A DNA stretch of 64,000 nucleotides. Origin: Spiroplasma alleghenense. GTDB taxonomy: Bacteria; Bacillota_I; Bacilli_A; Mycoplasmatales; Mycoplasmataceae. The notes beneath the pieces were generated by a model that ran no database searches, was not told where the DNA came from, and saw nothing but the letters and a program-made list of their open reading frames with translations. This document shows positions 16,350 to 51,895 of the stretch, piece after piece. The stretch spans positions 62,001-126,000 of the forward strand of contig NZ_CP031376.1 of assembly GCF_003363775.1 (NCBI RefSeq), given 5' to 3'. Each line of letters starts with the position of its first letter. The stretch's first letter is position 1. Position numbers and translations under genes: made by a program.

Positions 16350-19193
16350 ATGAATAAAGATGTTATTAAAGTAAAAGGTGCTCGTGAGCATAACTTAAAA
16401 AATGTTGAAATTGAAATTCCAAAAAATAAATTAGTTATTTTTACAGGACTTTCTGGAAGTGGTAAATCTTCGTTAGCGTTTAATACAATTTATGCTGAAG
16501 GGCGTCGCCGATATATTGAATCGCTTTCTGCTTATGCGCGTCAATTTTTAGGGGGTAATGAAAAACCTGATGTTGATTCAATTGAGGGACTAAGTCCAGC
16601 GATCTCAATTGATCAAAAAACTACTTCACATAATCCTCGTTCAACTGTAGGAACAGTAACAGAAGTTTATGATTACCTTCGTTTGCTTTATGCAAGAGTG
16701 GGGACTCCATTTTGTATAAATGGTCATGGTGAAATTAAAGCGTCTTCCATAAAAGAAGTTGTTGAATCAATTCAAAAGGAAACCGCTATTGATGAGCAAG
16801 TATTTATTTTAGCACCAATTGTGGTCGATAAAAAAGGAAGCTTTAAGGATCGCTTAGAAAAATTAAGAGCCGAAGGATTTATTCGAGTTCAGATTGATGG
16901 AGCAATAATTAATTTAGATGAAGAAATTGATTTAGATAAAAATACCCGTCACAACATTGATATAGTTGTAGATAGATTAATTTTTCAAGACGACGAAGAA
17001 ATCAAGTCAAGGATTTATTCTGCAATTGAAGTTGGTTTAAAATACGCAAACGGACTAATTAAAGTTCACTATCCCAATAAAGACAAGCTAGAAAAATTGT
17101 TTTCAACAATTTATTCATGTAAAGTTTGTGGCTTTAGTATTGCTGATATGGAACCAAGACTATTCTCATTTAATGCCCCACAAGGAGCTTGTTCTGATTG
17201 TACTGGTTTAGGAATTAATTTAGAACCCGACCAGGATTTAATAATTCCTGATAAGACTGTTTCAATTTCAGATGGAGGAATTGTTTATTATAAAAATATT
17301 ATTGCCAAAGACAATATTGAATGACAACGCTTTAAAATTTTATGTGATCACTACTACATTGATTTAGAAGCTCCAATTCAACAGTTAACCCCAAAGCAAA
17401 AAGAAATGATTCTTTGAGGAAGTGATGAACCAATTGAATCAAAAATTAAATCTTCGGGAGGAAATACTTTTGAGTCGTTTGATTATATTGAAGGGGTTGC
17501 AAGCTTAATTCAAAGAAGATATATGGAAACCAAGTCTGAGGAGAGCCGTAAGTGATATGCTAAATTCATGGCTTCAAAAACTTGCAAAACTTGTAAGGGG
17601 GCTCGTCTTAATTCAACTGCTTTAGCTATAAAAATAAATAATCTTTCAATAAATGATTTCACTAACTTAGCAATCGATGAAGAATTGGATTTCTTGTTGA
17701 ATATTAAATTAAATCCAAATCAAGAAAAAATTGCTAACCTAGTTTTGAAAGAAATTGTTTCAAGAATTAGTTTTTTAAATGAAGTTGGTCTAAGTTACTT
17801 GAACTTATCACGAACTGCCACCACTCTTTCTGGGGGAGAAGCTCAAAGGATTCGTCTAGCCAAACAAATCGGTTCGCAGTTAACAGGAATTTTATACGTT
17901 TTAGATGAACCATCAATTGGTTTACACCAAAGAGATAATGATAAATTGATTGCTACCTTAAAGCACTTGCGTGATTTGGGTAACACTTTAATTGTGGTTG
18001 AACATGATGAAGATACAATGCGCGCTAGTGATTGAATTGTTGACATTGGTCCGGGTGCTGGAATTCATGGAGGAGAAATTGTTTTTCAAGGAACTGTAGA
18101 AGACATTGTCAGAGATGAAAAATCTTTAACAGGAAGATACTTAAGTGGTCGTGACTCAATTCCATTACCAAAAAATACTCGCGGAGGTAATGGGAAAAAA
18201 ATTGAAATTATTGGAGCTAGTGAAAATAATTTACAAAATATTGATGTAACGATTCCGCTAAATAAATTTATTACTATCACGGGAGTTAGTGGAAGTGGTA
18301 AGTCTACCTTAATGGAAGACATTATTTATAAAAGTTTAAAGAAAACTTTACACAATGAGCAAATCAAACCAGGAGCTCATAAATCAATTAAAGGGTTAGA
18401 AAATATTGATAAAGTAATTTATGTTTCTCAAGAACCAATTGGTAAAACTCCAAAATCAAACCCAGCAACTTATACTTCTGTATTTGATGATATTAGAGAC
18501 TTGTATACAGAAACCACTGAAGCTAAAATTCGTGGTTATAAAAAAGGACGATTTAGTTTTAATGTTCCTGGGGGACGATGTGAAAATTGTCAAGGAGATG
18601 GAATTATAACAATCTCGATGCAATTTATGCCAAGTGTAGAAGTTGTTTGTGAGGTTTGTGATGGAAAACGTTACAACGAGCAAACTCTTCAAGTTCTATT
18701 TAAAGGTAAAAATATCTTTGATGTTCTAAGCATGAGTGTTGAAGAGGCTGCAGTATTTTTTGAAAATATTCCTCAGATTAAAAATAAGCTTGATACAATT
18801 TTAGAAGTAGGTTTAGGATATATTAAACTAGGACAAAATGCAAAAACTTTATCTGGGGGAGAAGCACAACGAATCAAACTCTCAACATTTTTACTAAAAA
18901 AACAAACAGGTAAAACATTATTTCTATTAGATGAACCAACTACGGGTTTACATATCGATGATGTTAAAAGATTGTTAGCGGTTTTAAATCGATTAGTTGA
19001 TTTGGGAAATACTGTCTTAACAATTGAACATAATTTAGATTTTATTAAAGTTTCAGACTATATAATTGACTTGGGACCTGGAGGAGGAACTGGAGGTGGC
19101 CGTGTTGTTGTAACCGGAACACCAGAACAAGTAATAAAAAGTGAGACTAGTTACACTGCGCAATATTTGAGAAAGTATTTAGAACGTGATTAG
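16350..19193 (+). CDS. uvrA: Excinuclease ABC subunit A
   Basis: UvrA is the damage-recognition ATPase of excision repair, with two ABC modules. The 947-residue product has the first P-loop [11 protein letters not shown] near residue 32, zinc-finger cysteines CKVCGF..CSDCTG and later [14 protein letters not shown], and ABC signatures [12 protein letters not shown] and [12 protein letters not shown] with Walker B strands [12 protein letters not shown] and [12 protein letters not shown]. The second P-loop is [10 protein letters not shown]. Several TGA tryptophans interrupt standard-code reading. It begins one base after uvrB, and the folC start overlaps its last codons. Confidence 0.97.
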
Positions 19194-20292
19194 TGTTAGT
19201 GAAAATTTTATTCCTAAGTTTCAAGAAGCAAGTAAAAAAAATTTAAGAGAAATTTTAGAAAAACATAAAAATTTTCAAAACCAATATCCAGTTATTAATG
19301 TTGTTGGCACAAACGGGAAGGGCTCGACAAGTTATTTTACTTCTCAGGGTTTAAAACCTTATTATTCAAAAATTGGTTTGTTCATTTCTCCTGCCTTTCT
19401 TTATCAAAATGAAAGAATTCAAATAAATAACGAATGCATCAGTGATTCTAATTTTAAAAAAATTTTAAAAAAATTTGAAAAAGATATTAACGATAACAAA
19501 CTTAATTTTTTTGAAATTTATACTTTGATTGCAATGTGATATTTTTTTGAAAATAAAGTCGACATTGCTGTGATTGAAGCTGGAATCGGGGGCGTGCTTG
19601 ATACAACAAATTTATTTGAAAACCAAATTGCAACGGTTTTAACCACTGTAGGATTAGACCATGAAGAAATTTTAGGTTATAACGTCAAAGAAATTATTAA
19701 TCAAAAAATTGGTATTGCTAAAAAGGGTTTTGTAGTCATCAGTCCTGATAATAAAAAATATTTTAAACTTATTAAATATAAATTGCAAAAAGTTGATTTG
19801 CCATTGTTCCAATCAAAGATTTATTACGAAGATAAAACTTATCAAAAAAATAATAAAGGATTAGTTTTAAAACTGTTTGAAGTGTTAAAATTAGATTTTG
19901 ATTTAACGATTTTTAATAATCAAGGATTATTTGGAAGATTAACAGTACTGAACAAATCTCCAAAATTAATTATTGATGGGGCTCACAATGTCAAAGGTAT
20001 CCAAGCCTTAATAAAAACAAGTAAAATAATATCTAAAAACTTTGAAGTTATTTTTGCTAGTTCTTGGAAAAAAAATTTTCATAAGGAAATAAAAATCTTA
20101 CGAAAAAATTTTAAAAATATTTATTTTGCCGAGTTTAACGAAATTGAAAACTGAAATTTTGAAAAAAAATATCAAGTGATTGACTGAAAAGAAAAAATAA
20201 AAAATAATATAAAAAATAATCAAGACACATTAGTATGTGGTAGCCTCTACTTTGTACCAATTGTTTATCAATGATTTATTACGGAGGGATAG
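19186..20292 (+). CDS. folC: Folylpolyglutamate synthase/dihydrofolate synthase (FolC) family, short
   Basis: FolC adds glutamate residues to folates (and in some bacteria to dihydropteroate), using ATP, in the cytoplasm. The 368-residue product has the P-loop [12 protein letters not shown] near residue 44, the Mur-ligase-like motif [13 protein letters not shown] and the C-terminal IIDGAHN. Family members are usually about 420 residues, so it is somewhat reduced. The GTG start overlaps the end of uvrA by eight bases. The stop is one base before the TTG of an ECF S component, which suggests that this transporter handles a folate and that FolC traps it by glutamylation. Confidence 0.88.
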
Positions 20293-20293
20293 T

Positions 20294-21931
20294 TTGTTTT
20301 ACATATTCACTACTTTGGGAGCTGCTATGGGAATTTTAATTTTTTTTCTGCTTGCGCTTTGAATTGAAAAATGAAATTTTAGACGTCTAACAATCAAAGT
20401 GATTGCTATCCTCTCTTTATTAACAGCAATGTCAGTAGTTTTAACAAATTTTATCAGTTATAGTTTTCCTTTTTTTGGTGGAGCTATAATTTTAGCATTA
20501 GGAGACTGAATTATTTTTCTAACAGGAATGACATTTGGTCCACTTTCGGGAGTAATTGTGGGAATTTGCACTGATTTAACCGGAACAATGATTAATTTGT
20601 CTGGACAATTTCATCTTGGCTTCATGATGATTAAAGTTTTGTTGGGTTTTTCAGGATCATTAGTATTTTTGTTTCGAAAGAATAATTTTATATACTTAAA
20701 AGTTTTGTTAATTTATTCAATATGTTACACATTAACATCTTTAGTATTAAATCCAATATGGCTATATGCAATTGGTTGAGGTAATGCTGTATTTGTTCAT
20801 TTTGTTGCGAAGTTAATAAAATTGCCTTTTGGAATTGCTGTCTACCCCCTAATTGCATTTTTGTCATTTACTGTAATAGTCAAAATTATTAAGGATTGAA
20901 GCGAAAATGAAGTTTGATGTTTTCGTCGTGGAAAGATTAATTTTTTTGGTAAAATAATGTTAAAGAGAAAATTGTCTTTGAAAAAAGGAGAAGTAAAAAT
21001 GAATAAACTAAAAATAAAAAATCTTGTAGACCATTTTGAATTAGAAGTAATTTCGGGGAAAGAACATTTAGATAATGTAATTGAGGTTTACGGTTTAAAT
21101 CGTGCAGGTCTTGAATTAGCAGGTTATGTTGAAAAAGATGTTCAAAAACGTCGTGTTGTCCTATTTTCAAATAAAGAAAATAATTATATTCACGGTTTTA
21201 CAGAGGCTGAAAGAGAAAAAAAATATTTAGAAATGCTGAAAGATAAAATCCCAGCAGTTATAATAACTGAAAAGTTTGATGATAATATTCTTGTCAAAAC
21301 TACCAACAAACTTGGGATTCCCTTATTAAAGGTTAGTGGTCAAACAACAAGTGAGTTTACCCAACAAATTTTAGGTTTTTATGATGATTACTTTGCTCCA
21401 AGCGAAGAATTTCACGGTTCTTTAGTCAACATTTACGGTAAGGGCGTAATGATTATGGGAAAATCAGGAATTGGAAAATCAGAAATAACAATTGAATTGG
21501 TTAAGAAAAATCATTTATTTGTTGGAGATGATCGTATTGTGGCCATCAGAAAATCAAGTAAAATTTATGGTAAAAGTCATGAAATTTTAAATAATCTTGT
21601 TGAAGTTCGCGGAATTGGGATTGTTGACATTGCTCAGACTAACGGCTATCAAGTTATTTTAGATGAAACTGAAATTGAACTAGTGATTGACTTAATAAAA
21701 TTTGGGGAAAATGGTGTTGATGACACTGATAGACTAGGAAATGAATACGATACCAAAAACATTCTAGGTGTTAAAATTCCTCATATCAGAATCCCTGTTT
21801 CATCAGGTAGAAATATTGCCAATATTATTGAAACCGCTGTTGCCCAACTAAAAATTAAAGAAAGCGGCAATTGAGTGAGTCCAACCAAAATAATTGCTAA
21901 TCGAATTGAAAAAACCAATCAAAATGATTAA
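20294..21931 (+). CDS. ECF transporter S component (FolT-like) open in frame into HPr kinase
   Basis: From the TTG at 20294 the frame stays open under code 4 through 545 codons and ends at the hprK stop. Residues 1 to about 205 are five to six hydrophobic helices with the S-component pattern FGPLSGVIVGICTDLTGTMI. A short charged linker follows (residues about 202-235, including TGA codons at 20897 and 20915 read as Trp), then the full HprK sequence begins. S components bind a vitamin and use a shared ECF energising module that is not in this window. The folC neighbour suggests folate. I checked every codon between 20780 and 20999 and found no TAA or TAG. Either one fusion protein is made, or HprK is made separately from an internal start, or both. 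Confidence 0.7.
20984..21001 (+). promoter_or_regulatory. Internal ribosome binding site and ATG for hprK
   Basis: AAAGGAG (20984-20990) lies eight bases before the ATG at 20999, an ideal distance. The site is inside the open frame of the upstream S component and gives a free HprK of normal length. Confidence 0.75.
20999..21931 (+). CDS. hprK: HPr kinase/phosphorylase
   Basis: HprK phosphorylates and dephosphorylates Ser46 of HPr in response to the energy state and so controls PTS activity. Counting from the ATG at 20999 the product is 310 residues, the family norm. It has the catalytic-histidine segment EEFHGSLVNIYG (His139), the P-loop GKSGIGKS (about 154-161), GDDRIVAI, the family signature VEVRGIGIVDI and the C-terminal RNIANIIETAV. 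One TGA tryptophan is near the end. No stop separates it from the S-component frame upstream. The lgt start overlaps its last codons by eight bases. HPr with Ser46 is encoded at 58379. Confidence 0.95.
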
Positions 21932-23387
21932 TTTTTTAAGTAATATTCCAAATCCTGGAGACCAAGTTGATAAATGACTAGAACAAGGACAAAACGATCC
22001 CTATTTATGAGGATGAATGCCAATTTATCCAATTTTCATTTTTTTAGGAGTAATGGCTGTTTTAATTGCTTCGGTGATAAAATTTCGTATGCGCAAAATT
22101 CCTCTTTATGATTTGGGAATTGGAATTTTTGTTGTTATTCCAGCAGGAATAATTGGAGCTAGTGTTTTAGGTAAATTTAATATCATATATAATAACTGAA
22201 AAGTTTGGGAGTTATTTTATTTTTGACAACCAGGAATGTCAATTTTTGGTGGTTTAATTTTTGGAGGAGCCGCGGGTTTTGCCTGATTTCATAAAAGAGC
22301 TCAGCATTATCAAATATCAACTTGAGTTTACTCTGATTGTATCTTACCAAATGTTTTACTCGGACAAGCAATAGGGCGATGAGGTAACCTATATAATCAT
22401 GAAATATTAGGAAAACCAACAAGTTTGGAAAGTCTTCAAAAATGATTGCCTGATTGAATTGTCAATAAATTGTGATATGTTCAAAATCCAAATCCTGGAG
22501 CATTAGAAACAGATCCTTGATTTATTGAATATCGCGAACCACTATTCTTATATGAATCCATCGCTTGTCTATTATTGTTCGTCTTGATCACATTTTTAAT
22601 TGCCAACTTGGGTAGATTATTTTCAAAAAAACCTTGAAAAATTTATCCTCAGGAATTTCCGAATAATTTTAATAAGCAATTAAAGTGAGCTAAAAAAGAA
22701 GAACTACAACTTTGAGAAACCCAAAGAGCCATTGTTTATAAAGAAAGAATAAATAATGAAGTTAGCGAACTTAAATTGAGTTGATGGGAAAGTTGGAATA
22801 AAGCTTATTATTTGAAAGTTTTAGACAATGAGAGAATCGCTTACTTTTCAGAATTGGAAAATATCGAACAATCTAATTTGAAGCGTAAAGAGTTAAAGCT
22901 TGAAAAATCTCTACAATTACAAAAAAATGAGTTAGATTCAAATAAACAAAGTTACTTAAAAAAACTCAAAAAAGTTAAAACTAGTACTGAAAAAAAAGAG
23001 TTAGAAAAAAAATATAAATTAAAGGTCAGAGAAATCAAACAAAGTTATCGACAACAAATTAAAGAGCTTAAACGAGAAACGAACTGATTTAGAAATACTT
23101 GAAATCAAGATTGCAAGGATCTTTATCAAGCCAATAACCCGGATAACTACTTTGTTATCCATTGTGGAGTGGTGAGTTCATCTTATTTAGTGGGCTATAT
23201 GATTATAAGATGGGTTCTAGAAACCAGAAGAACGGATGCTGAACTTGTTTTAAAACACCTTTTTGCTATGGATATGGTATTATTTGCTATTTTAACTACA
23301 TTTTCGCTTGTGCTGCTGGTATTTGCTCAATTCATTTCGCCTTATAAGTGGAGAAAAATTAATTGACTTTATGAAAAATCATATTAA
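21924..23387 (+). CDS. lgt: Prolipoprotein diacylglyceryl transferase paralogue 1, divergent, with long charged insertion
   Basis: Lgt transfers diacylglycerol to the lipobox cysteine of prelipoproteins in the membrane. This 487-residue copy has the family motifs GQAIGRWGNLYNHE and YMIIRWVLETRRTD. In the segment QPGMSIFGGLIFGG the histidine of the conserved HGG motif is Phe108. Between the penultimate membrane helix and the C-terminal motif lies a charged, probably coiled-coil insertion (about residues 240-395, Lys/Glu/Gln-rich). Typical Lgt is about 270-300 residues. It overlaps hprK by eight bases and precedes a second lgt by 43 bases. Activity is doubtful because of the lost histidine; it may be a specialised or regulatory paralogue. 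Confidence 0.85.
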
Positions 23388-23430
23388 TAGTCAAAAATAT
23401 GCTAAAATTTTAGATATGGAGGATTTTTAA

Positions 23431-24801
23431 ATGGTCGATTGAGTATTTAATGAAAGAGATTGAAAAATATGAAATGACGGTTGAATCCAAGAAGTTTATG
23501 GTGGTTGGTTTAGGGTTTATGCATTCACTATGACTCTTGGAGTAATCGCTGCAATTCTTTTTTCAGCTTACAAATTTTGAAGAAAAGATCTTCAATTGAC
23601 TCAATTGGCAATTGGAGCCGTTCCGATTGTTATTTGTTCGCTATTTGGGGCAAGTTTCTTTGGTAAGCTAAATTCCGGAGGGAAAACTGATTTCTCCAAT
23701 CCATCAGAAGTATGAAGGTTATTTCAATTTTGACAGGGTGGTATGGCAATTCACGGAGGTGTTTTTGTCGGAGCATTTGTAGGAATAATAATATTTTATT
23801 TTATGGGTCGAAGAACTCATGTTTCTGTATGAACCTATATGGATGCGATTATTCCAAATATTTTAATAGGTCAAGGAATTGGTAGATGAGGTAACTTCTT
23901 TAATCATGAAATTACGGGTCCGCCAATTGGCCTGGCTTCAGAAACTAATTTGTGATGGTTACCGAACTTTATAACAAGAAATACACAAGCAGTTTATATA
24001 GGCTTAAATAATAAGCCGCCAATAAATGGAATACATCTTGAAAACGGACAACTTTACCAATTAAATCCAATATTCATTTATGAAGCTTTTTGATTAATTG
24101 TTGCTTGAGCTGTCATTACTTTTGTGATTCCCCACTTCTTAAAGTGATTTCAAAAAAGACCAGAAAATATTTCAATGTCTAAACTAAATGTTGAATTAAA
24201 AAACGAATACTTCAATACATTTGCTAATGCATTGGGTGAATTTCAATTTACAAATTTTGGTGGTTGAAAATACGATCGTCTATTTTACTTTAATATTTCA
24301 AGCTACGGAATGAAAAATTATGATTCAGTTAAGTCGAGATTAGACAAATCTCGAAGTAATAAAGAAATTGGTTACTTGTCTTATAGATGAAAGATGGGAC
24401 AAGCTCTAGAAGAAGCCAACAATCCATACAGAATAAAAGTTATAAGATCAGGAGTTGAAGCCGGAGCCTATTTCTTTTCTTGGAACCTAGTTAGATTTAT
24501 TTTGGAACTACAAAGACCATCAAACCACTTATTTATCCAAAATGATAAAACTTTATCTCTTATTGTTATTGGGATCACTGGTTTAATTGGATTAATAGTA
24601 ATGGCTTTATGTCAGTTTGTTGTGCCATATTTATTTAGAAAAACAGGATATTCTTATGAAAAAGACTACTTTAAAGTAATTAATTTAAAAAATGTTGAGT
24701 CAATCAATCCTGAAGTTGCTAATAAAAAAAATAATGTCCGTAAATCAAAAGAAATCAAAGCTCAAGAAAAACTTGAAAAATTAAAACAAAAAGCTAAGTA
24801 G
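23431..24801 (+). CDS. lgt: Prolipoprotein diacylglyceryl transferase paralogue 2
   Basis: This 456-residue copy keeps the full family signature: GGMAIHGGVFVG with His108, GQGIGRWGNFFNHEITG with the conserved Arg, and VEAGAYFFSWNLVRFILELQRP near the C-terminus (quoted in part). It is therefore the better candidate for the active enzyme, needed for the BMP lipoproteins at 34822 and 36272. It is longer than usual because of a segment of about 90 residues before the last motif and a lysine/glutamate-rich cytoplasmic tail of about 50 residues. Many tryptophans are TGA. The start follows a GGAGG site. whiA follows after eight bases. Confidence 0.92.
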
Positions 24802-47700: not shown

Positions 47701-48777
47701 ATGAATCAGAGAGTCCAATTACTTTTTAAAATTGCCATTGTTCCAGTTTATGCTGCAATGGTAGTGGGAGCCAAAGAAGCTTTAGCTTTGGTACCCAATA
47801 TTGAATTGGTCTCTTTTCTTTTGTCCTTTGCGGCTTTAGTATTTCCGATTCTAATGGTCTTGGGAATAATTACGGTGTTTACGTTTATTGAGGTATTTAT
47901 CTACTCTTATGGTGTGGCACAATGAATGCTTTTGTATTTAATTGCTTGACCAATTCTAGTTTTATTGACTTTGCTGTTTAGACCAGCCATTAAGCGTCAC
48001 TGATTTATTTTTGTAATAATAAATGCTATTTTTGGATTATGTTTTGGTTTAATCGATGCTGTTTTAAACTACTTTGTGTGGTTTCAATTTAATCTACCAG
48101 TAACGATTGCCTATTATCTACGCGGAATTACTTTTGATATTATTCATGGCTCGGGTAATTTTGTAGTAGCAATTATTTTGTACAAACCAGTAATGGCTTT
48201 ATGAAATAGTCATTTGAAAAAATACTTAGGAGGTAATTATTTCGTGAAACAAGAAAAAGGATATGTTCATATAATTATGGGTGAGGGAAAAGGAAAAACC
48301 TCAGCTTTAAACGGGATGGCTTTAAGGGCTGCTGGAGATGGATGAACCGTTAAGTATGTGCGTTTTTTAAAGAATCGCCCAACTAGTGAAAACAAAATGC
48401 TTAAAAAAGCTAAAATTAAAGTTGAAAACTTTTATCATTTTTCAAAAAAATTTATCTGAGAAATGAACGAAACTGAAGTTGAAGAGTTCAAAACAGAAAC
48501 TCGAAAAGGTTTTGAACATCTGAAAAATTTGTTACAAGATAGCAATAATAATATGATTTTAATTGATGAACTTCTTGGGGCCATAGAAAATAAATTTATT
48601 GATGAGGATGAATTAATTACAGCCTTAAAAAATCGTCGCCCGGGAATTGAAATAGGAATATCAGGAAGATATGCCTCAGATAAATTAATAGAATTTGCAG
48701 ATCTGGTAAGTAAAATCGAGCCAGTCAAACATTATTTTGAAAAAGGGGTTGAAGCCAGAAAGGGGATTGAATATTAA
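47701..48777 (+). CDS. ECF S component (cobalamin type, predicted) joined in frame to CobA-type adenosyltransferase
   Basis: From the ATG at 47701 the frame stays open under code 4 for 358 codons. Residues 1-181 are a small membrane protein with about six helices, a conserved-looking N-terminus (QRVQLLFKIAIVPVYAAMVV) and size typical of an ECF S component. Residues 182-358 are a complete CobA/BtuR adenosyltransferase. All 105 codons between 47926 and 48240 were read and contain no TAA or TAG. The location between nrdJ and CobA suggests that the ligand is cobalamin. The product could be one uptake-and-adenosylation fusion, or the enzyme could also be made alone from an internal GTG at 48244. 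The ECF energising module is not in this window. Confidence 0.75.
48228..48246 (+). promoter_or_regulatory. Internal ribosome binding site and GTG for the adenosyltransferase
   Basis: AGGAGGT (48228-48234) lies nine bases before an in-frame GTG at 48244. This is a strong site inside an open frame and would yield a free 177-residue enzyme. Confidence 0.7.
48244..48777 (+). CDS. Cob(I)yrinic acid a,c-diamide adenosyltransferase (CobA/BtuR family)
   Basis: This enzyme transfers adenosine from ATP to reduced cobalamin and makes the coenzyme that NrdJ needs. The 177-residue unit has the P-loop IIMGEGKGKTSALNGMALRA, VRFLKNRPTSEN, the Walker-B-like MILIDELLGAIENKFI, RRPGIEIGISGRYA and the C-terminal signature KHYFEKGVEARKGIEY, all diagnostic of the CobA family. 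It can be read as the C-terminal domain of the S-component fusion or as a separate protein from the GTG at 48244. Its stop overlaps the start of the next gene by one base. Confidence 0.92.
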
Positions 48778-51100: not shown

Positions 51101-51895
51101 ATGAGATCATTTTTAGTAAAGTTGGCAACAATTGATGAAAACATTCTTACAAGTAGGGAAACTCAAATTGTCGAATATATTAAAGCTAATTTACACGAAA
51201 TAGTAAATAGCAACATGAAAATTGAAAGACTTGCCCAAGAGGTTGGAACAGGATATAGTGCAATCTACGGATTATTAAACAAACTAAATATCAGGGGTTA
51301 CCGCGACTTCTCCATTTCTCTTTCAAACGATGCAGATTCACAAGAAATCGAAGTGGCTAAAAACGATGAAAATGTTGCAGCAAGTTACATTAACTTAATA
51401 AAACAAAACTATTCTTTAATAGAAAAACGTGCAATTTTTGAATCATTAAAACTAATTAGAAAATCAACAAGAATTTTTATTTGTTACTGAGAAAACTCGC
51501 TTATGGGCCCAGCACAAGTTTTAGAAAACTTCTTGTATAAAGAAAAATTGAATTGCTATCTTTTAGATAACGACTGAGATACTTTATTAGATCGTGTCGA
51601 AAACTTAAGAGAAGATGATTTATTTATTTTTTATACAAAATATGGTCAATCAAAGCACCTTGAAAGAATTATGAACAGAATTAAGAATAAAAATGGAGAT
51701 ATTATTTATATCTCTGGAAGAGTTTCAAATCCCGAAATTGCTAGATTAGCAAATTCATCACATACACTAATAATTGAAAATTATGAATCAACTCAATTTA
51801 ATAGCTATGTTTCACAATCAGTTCCCTTTCATTATTTTAATGATTTATTTATTTATCATTTTGTAAATACGTCAAATCAAGAAAGAGCTGAATAG
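51101..51895 (+). CDS. MurR/RpiR-family transcriptional regulator
   Basis: RpiR-type regulators bind DNA with an N-terminal helix-turn-helix and sense phosphorylated sugars with a SIS domain. The 264-residue product has the HTH region TSRETQIVEYIKANLHEIV and MKIERLAQEVGTGYSAIYGL, and a SIS-like C-terminus (IFICYWENSLMGPAQVLENF, LFIFYTKYGQSKHLERI, YISGRVSNPEIARLANSS). An AAAGGAGGT site precedes the ATG. manA (mannose-6-phosphate isomerase) follows after a terminator, so a sugar phosphate is a plausible effector. Two tryptophans are TGA. The target genes are not visible. Confidence 0.85.

Follow-up and report, generated by a model that had tools for sequence, protein, structure and literature searches.

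A stop-free folT-hprK frame in Spiroplasma alleghenense, probably an in-frame gene overlap with two products

Is a folate-family S component that runs without a stop into HPr kinase one fused protein, or two adjacent genes that still yield two products? The question arose from an earlier note, made from the letters of a 64,000-nucleotide stretch of the Spiroplasma alleghenense genome (the window; positions are counted from its first letter). The note had reported that no TAA or TAG lies between position 20294 and the hprK stop, that the TGA codons at 20897 and 20915 are read as tryptophan, and that an ideal ribosome-binding site lies eight bases before the hprK ATG. The studied genome is referred to as G000, and G001 and G002 are the other members of the same genus examined. 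The features of the locus were as follows.

19186..20292, + strand: folC, the gene upstream of folT and part of one tightly packed run with it (TIGR01499)
20283..20287, + strand: GGAGG, ribosome-binding site of folT, six bases before the TTG and inside the end of folC (sequence; Shine-Dalgarno [SD] scan)
20294..20998, + strand: folT-like ECF S component (folate family), TTG start, without a stop of its own, linker included (TIGR04518; predicted model compared with 4z7f)
20897..20899, + strand: TGA read as Trp (table 4 translation)
20915..20917, + strand: TGA read as Trp within a WCFRRG motif (translation); Trp here recurs in the FolT tails of relatives
20957..20998, + strand: 42-nt linker from the FolT tail FFGKI to the hprK start, amino acids unconstrained and predicted to be disordered
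20984..20990, + strand: AAAGGAG, internal ribosome-binding site of hprK, 8 nt from the ATG (kept in G001; AGGAG in G002)
20999..21931, + strand: hprK, HPr(Ser) kinase/phosphatase, own ATG, 310 aa (TIGR00679; start alignment with 1knx)
21924..23387, + strand: lgt, downstream neighbour, overlapping the end of hprK out of frame (TIGR00544/PF01790; sequence)

Translation with table 4 from position 20291 bore out the reading of the frame. From the TTG at 20294 to 21931 (+ strand), no TAA or TAG occurs before the final TAA at 21929-21931, and both TGA codons are translated as Trp, a code that fits the window throughout. In relatives, the counterpart of WCFRRG near the end of FolT is WCF, WCL, WCY, or PW. 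Neither TGA can be the FolT stop. The full read-through product, FolT-HprK, would have 545 residues. No terminator was found between folT and hprK, and promoter-like sites between them occurred only at chance level. Downstream, two tandem lgt (prolipoprotein diacylglyceryl transferase) genes with long extra segments occupy window positions 21924-24801, and the first of them scores below the TIGR00544 cut-off. Other fused or split differences in the 64 kb were rejected as shadow frames antisense to known genes.

Both parts of the frame were recognized by family models. The FolT part matched TIGR04518 (6.1e-23, 81.4 bits, cut-off 60) and, searched alone, reached PF12822 exactly at its cut-off (30.7 bits for both). 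Its predicted structure has six transmembrane helices and the S-component fold, with a TM score of 0.80 (normalised to target) to the solved FolT 4z7f. The HprK part matched the equivalog model TIGR00679 (3.9e-88, 295.6 bits, cut-off 240), and all of the HprK motifs were found: EFHG at 137, GKSGIGKSE at 154 (Walker A, GxxGxGKSE), VGDDR at 175, EVRGIG at 202, and DRLG at 244. HprK is hexameric in solved relatives. In the AlphaFold model of the whole fusion, the helical membrane domain matched solved FolT and the HprK domain matched 1knx. Fusion residues 220-235 had pLDDT values below 50, by which the linker is predicted to be disordered, and the overall pTM was just 0.47, so the relative placement of the two domains is undefined.

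HprK and the solved Mycoplasma pneumoniae HPrK (1knx) align from residue 1 of each, which identifies the ATG at 20999 as the canonical hprK start. The ribosome-binding site in front of it was as strong as the earlier note had held: in the SD scan, it ranked first among the 334 internal in-frame ATGs of the window. An SD run of at least 7 nt was present at just 4 of the 45 gene starts tested in the window. For the background count, 400 kb of the genome was sampled as stretches, and in 464 kb of genome, such a run preceded 5 of 3,364 internal in-frame start codons. The hprK start was the sole ATG among those five, and the GTG of cobA (see below) was another. Loss of the internal initiation signals would mark an obligate one-product fusion; here, SD and ATG are both retained and strong.

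A sequencing or assembly error that removed a stop is hardly credible, since the frame is likewise open in the independently sequenced sister G001, with many substitutions and despite near-saturated synonymous change (hprK, G000 vs. G001: Ka 0.065, Ks 1.69). In G001, the stop-free frame spans the same 565 codons, with 84% identity along its full length. In G002, the comparison of sister species that had been proposed in the earlier note revealed an out-of-frame overlap instead: folT extends 20 nt into hprK in a different frame before it reaches a TAA, and a 4-nt indel makes its aligned linker four bases longer than those of G000 and G001.

Base-by-base reading covered 44 loci, 29 with folT close to hprK. 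Two of these pairs are fused (G000 and G001), and in all of the 27 unfused pairs folT ends with TAA or TAG. The two genes overlap out of frame in G002 (−20 nt, L004), G008 (−8 nt, L023), and G077 (−20 nt, L039), and with overlaps in three lineages, the junction is prone to this arrangement. In G010, G072, and G082, the genes abut within 4 nt, and the remaining pairs lie 38-158 nt apart. A wider search, taken at the level of its match list, covered 298 genomes from the order and listed no further match that was stop-free through both FolT and HprK. A fusion in G018, to which an open frame of 716 codons among the search results had pointed, was rejected: folT there ends with TAG, and ten in-frame stops lie between the two genes. 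The tree built from UvrA, SecA, and HprK grouped G000 with G001 and placed G002 outside (SH-aLRT 99.9, UFBoot 100), overruling an HprK-only tree that had paired G000 with G002 (97/68). On the three-gene tree, the fused frame is derived, most simply with one origin in the ancestor of G000 and G001. Elsewhere in the window, an RpiR-family regulator (51101-51895) shows 100% amino-acid identity between G000 and G001, although DNA identity at this gene is only ~87% and most of the proteins encoded nearby have identities of 64-95%.

The linker evolves differently from a conserved protein segment. Between G000 and G001, its Ka was 0.73 and its Ks 0.56 over 14 codons (a small sample), and with these values it is without sign of protein-level constraint; the protein-level selection on the linker that would characterize an obligate fusion was not found. 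The longest identical linker block is 9 nt and holds the SD (permutation P 0.04). The linker contains zero indels and zero stops between the two genomes. In a neutral simulation, it remained stop-free in both G000 and G001 25-43% of the time (P 0.25-0.43), and a linker free of stops and indels over this long divergence is mildly above the neutral expectation, not significantly. Of the other 11-70 nt gaps that separate adjacent genes, the majority differ in length between G000 and G001, so the unchanged linker length is a mild point for frame keeping. Together, the linker data hint weakly at selection for the fused frame.

Selection of this kind could operate if HprK were anchored to the folate transporter for regulation, for example near PTS permeases or in vitamin-sugar coupling, which we consider unlikely. 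The frame has been kept open in two species. Nearly all Mollicutes other than phytoplasmas have HPr kinase, and in spiroplasmas, which appear to be without the CcpA system, its main target may be sugar transport (PMC5138195). S-component folds are also joined to signalling outputs elsewhere, e.g., in 5TMR sensor histidine kinases (PMC11109136). Against a selected anchor, however, the linker amino acids are unconstrained, the internal SD and ATG are kept, the fused frame is absent from G002 and every other relative read, an indel or stop loss suffices as a neutral origin, and the neutral expectation is not significantly exceeded.

We regard it as quite probable that folT and hprK form an in-frame (phase-0) overlap of adjacent genes with two products, tolerated and nearly neutral through gene packing. 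As such an overlap demands, the upstream frame is open through the downstream start, and the internal SD and start codon are conserved. The folT frame would have come into register with hprK in the common ancestor of G000 and G001, through an indel or through loss of the folT stop. Translation begun at the folT TTG could then not terminate before the hprK stop, and every completed FolT would bear HprK at its cytoplasmic C-terminus, while initiation at the internal SD and ATG 20999 would yield ordinary free HprK. The arrangement is presumably tolerated because the linker is flexible and the own start of HprK is intact. Its persistence would be nearly neutral, owed to gene packing and not to selection for an anchored kinase. 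Judged from the sequences, both FolT-HprK and free HprK are likely to be translated: the linker is unconstrained, the ribosome-binding site is conserved, and neutral drift can account for the open frame, so two products are likely and a selected role of the anchored kinase is weakly hinted. From the same data we infer that both forms are active and that the arrangement is close to neutral.

The earlier note had also proposed that, if a fusion is translated, a share of the kinase would be anchored to the membrane. Anchoring as such follows from the stop-free sequence and the cytoplasmic C-terminus of FolT; a selected job for the anchored form is, as stated above, only weakly hinted. Both ends of FolT proteins are cytoplasmic (PMC4525288), and the anchored kinase would thus be on the correct side of the membrane, where the kinase works. 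Going beyond the note, HprK should be attached not to a part but to all of the finished FolT, barring cleavage. S components are believed to topple in the course of transport (PMC4820897), so a large cargo on FolT could matter. With HprK as a domain of a toppling S component, folate uptake might suffer, and processing or frameshifting would then be needed.

FolT could be released in two such ways: by a frame shift or stall at the A-rich SD region followed by out-of-frame termination, or by a protease that cuts the lysine-rich linker. The linker is indeed predicted to be disordered and contains six consecutive A directly before GGAG, and each of the two other frames meets a stop close behind the junction (20994 and 21004). 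No slippery site is evident in common between G000 and G001, though, and nearby stops are always on offer in AT-rich DNA; release of FolT therefore seems improbable. The tryptic peptides over fusion residues 215-240 that were suggested in the earlier note would be poor evidence of the fusion, because the linker is rich in lysine. The Glu-C peptide diagnostic of the fusion is VKMNKLKIKNLVDHFE, and the protein N-terminal peptide diagnostic of free HprK is (M)NKLKIKNLVDHFE.

The window contains a second junction, where a membrane protein runs in frame into the adenosyltransferase CobA.

47701..48777, + strand: S-component-like membrane protein in frame with CobA adenosyltransferase (PF02572, 6e-51), open in G000, G001, and G002
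48228..48246, + strand: internal AGGAGGT (48228-48234) and GTG start (48244-48246) of cobA, kept in the three species

In G073, which belongs to another genus, the genes are separate: the membrane protein ends with LKKYLE-TAA, the TAA overlaps AAGGAG, and ATG-KQGYIH follows. In G000, G001, and G002 (loci L049, L050, and L051), the stop is gone (LKKYLGG), and GGAGGT and a start (GTG, GTG, and ATG, respectively) remain. The junction resembles that of FolT-HprK in that the stop is lost and the downstream SD and start are kept; it differs in being present in all three genus members and in having a shorter, more conserved linker. Its conservation in all three indicates that it is older than the FolT-HprK junction. 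In G036, cobA (L069, G036:C2:118461-118980) was found as two overlapping match pieces with several in-frame TAG and TAA codons, as if decayed.

The earlier note had called this membrane protein a second S component with the same arrangement. The anatomy stood, with conservation in three species added, and the label rests on weaker ground: the membrane part had no Pfam or NCBIfam match, and its predicted model showed weak S-component likeness (TmRibU, TM 0.57/0.61, E 0.54). By its modelled fold, it is probably an S component, and it is plausible that the membrane protein and CobA act on a common substrate. Two junctions in one window, both on S-component-like proteins, are a coincidence that the neutral account does not predict, and the second, conserved in three species, counts in favour of a selected fusion. 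In the strongest form of that idea, FolT-HprK would be a functional two-form kinase, soluble by internal initiation and anchored by read-through, that links nutrient uptake to HPr phosphorylation, and S-component genes in the lineage may repeatedly gain cytoplasmic enzymes (HprK, CobA) by stop loss; we consider this a long shot.

Read as an overlap with two products, the locus is a phylogenetically placed case in which two neighbours became one frame and both start signals survived, with the out-of-frame overlap preserved in a sister species. If it is translated as expected, FolT would be made solely joined to a central regulatory kinase, and the locus would serve as a test of how much cargo a vitamin transporter tolerates and of how anchoring affects carbon control. 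It also carries a warning for annotation, as gene callers will probably list either a single 545-residue protein without the free kinase or the free kinase without the fusion.

The limited open literature searched yielded no description of an HPr kinase that is fused or anchored to the membrane. Same-strand overlaps that arise via stop loss are well described, and in-frame ones have been treated as alternative starts of a single gene and left aside (PMC3887535). Genes with internal in-frame starts, such as that of Cas11b (PMC11899642), are comparable in having a single frame with an SD and a start inside it, from which a long and a short product with a common C-terminal part are expected; here, in contrast, folT and hprK are separate, unrelated genes in all the other relatives that were read, and the upstream one encodes a subunit of a membrane transporter. 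Compared with FolT-type ECF S components, the FolT part belongs to the same family model and has a predicted six-helix domain with the fold of solved FolT, but it has no stop codon and its C-terminus continues into HprK. The HprK part is full-length like the HPr(Ser) kinase/phosphatases of M. pneumoniae (1knx), L. casei, and S. xylosus, with an equal start residue, Walker A, and the signature motifs, and differs in being expected also as the C-terminal domain of a membrane protein. The 5TMR sensor histidine kinases (PMC11109136) likewise have an S-component fold followed by a cytoplasmic phosphotransfer enzyme; HprK, however, is a P-loop kinase unrelated to histidine kinases, its linker to FolT is disordered by prediction and unconserved, and the fusion is recent and lineage-specific.
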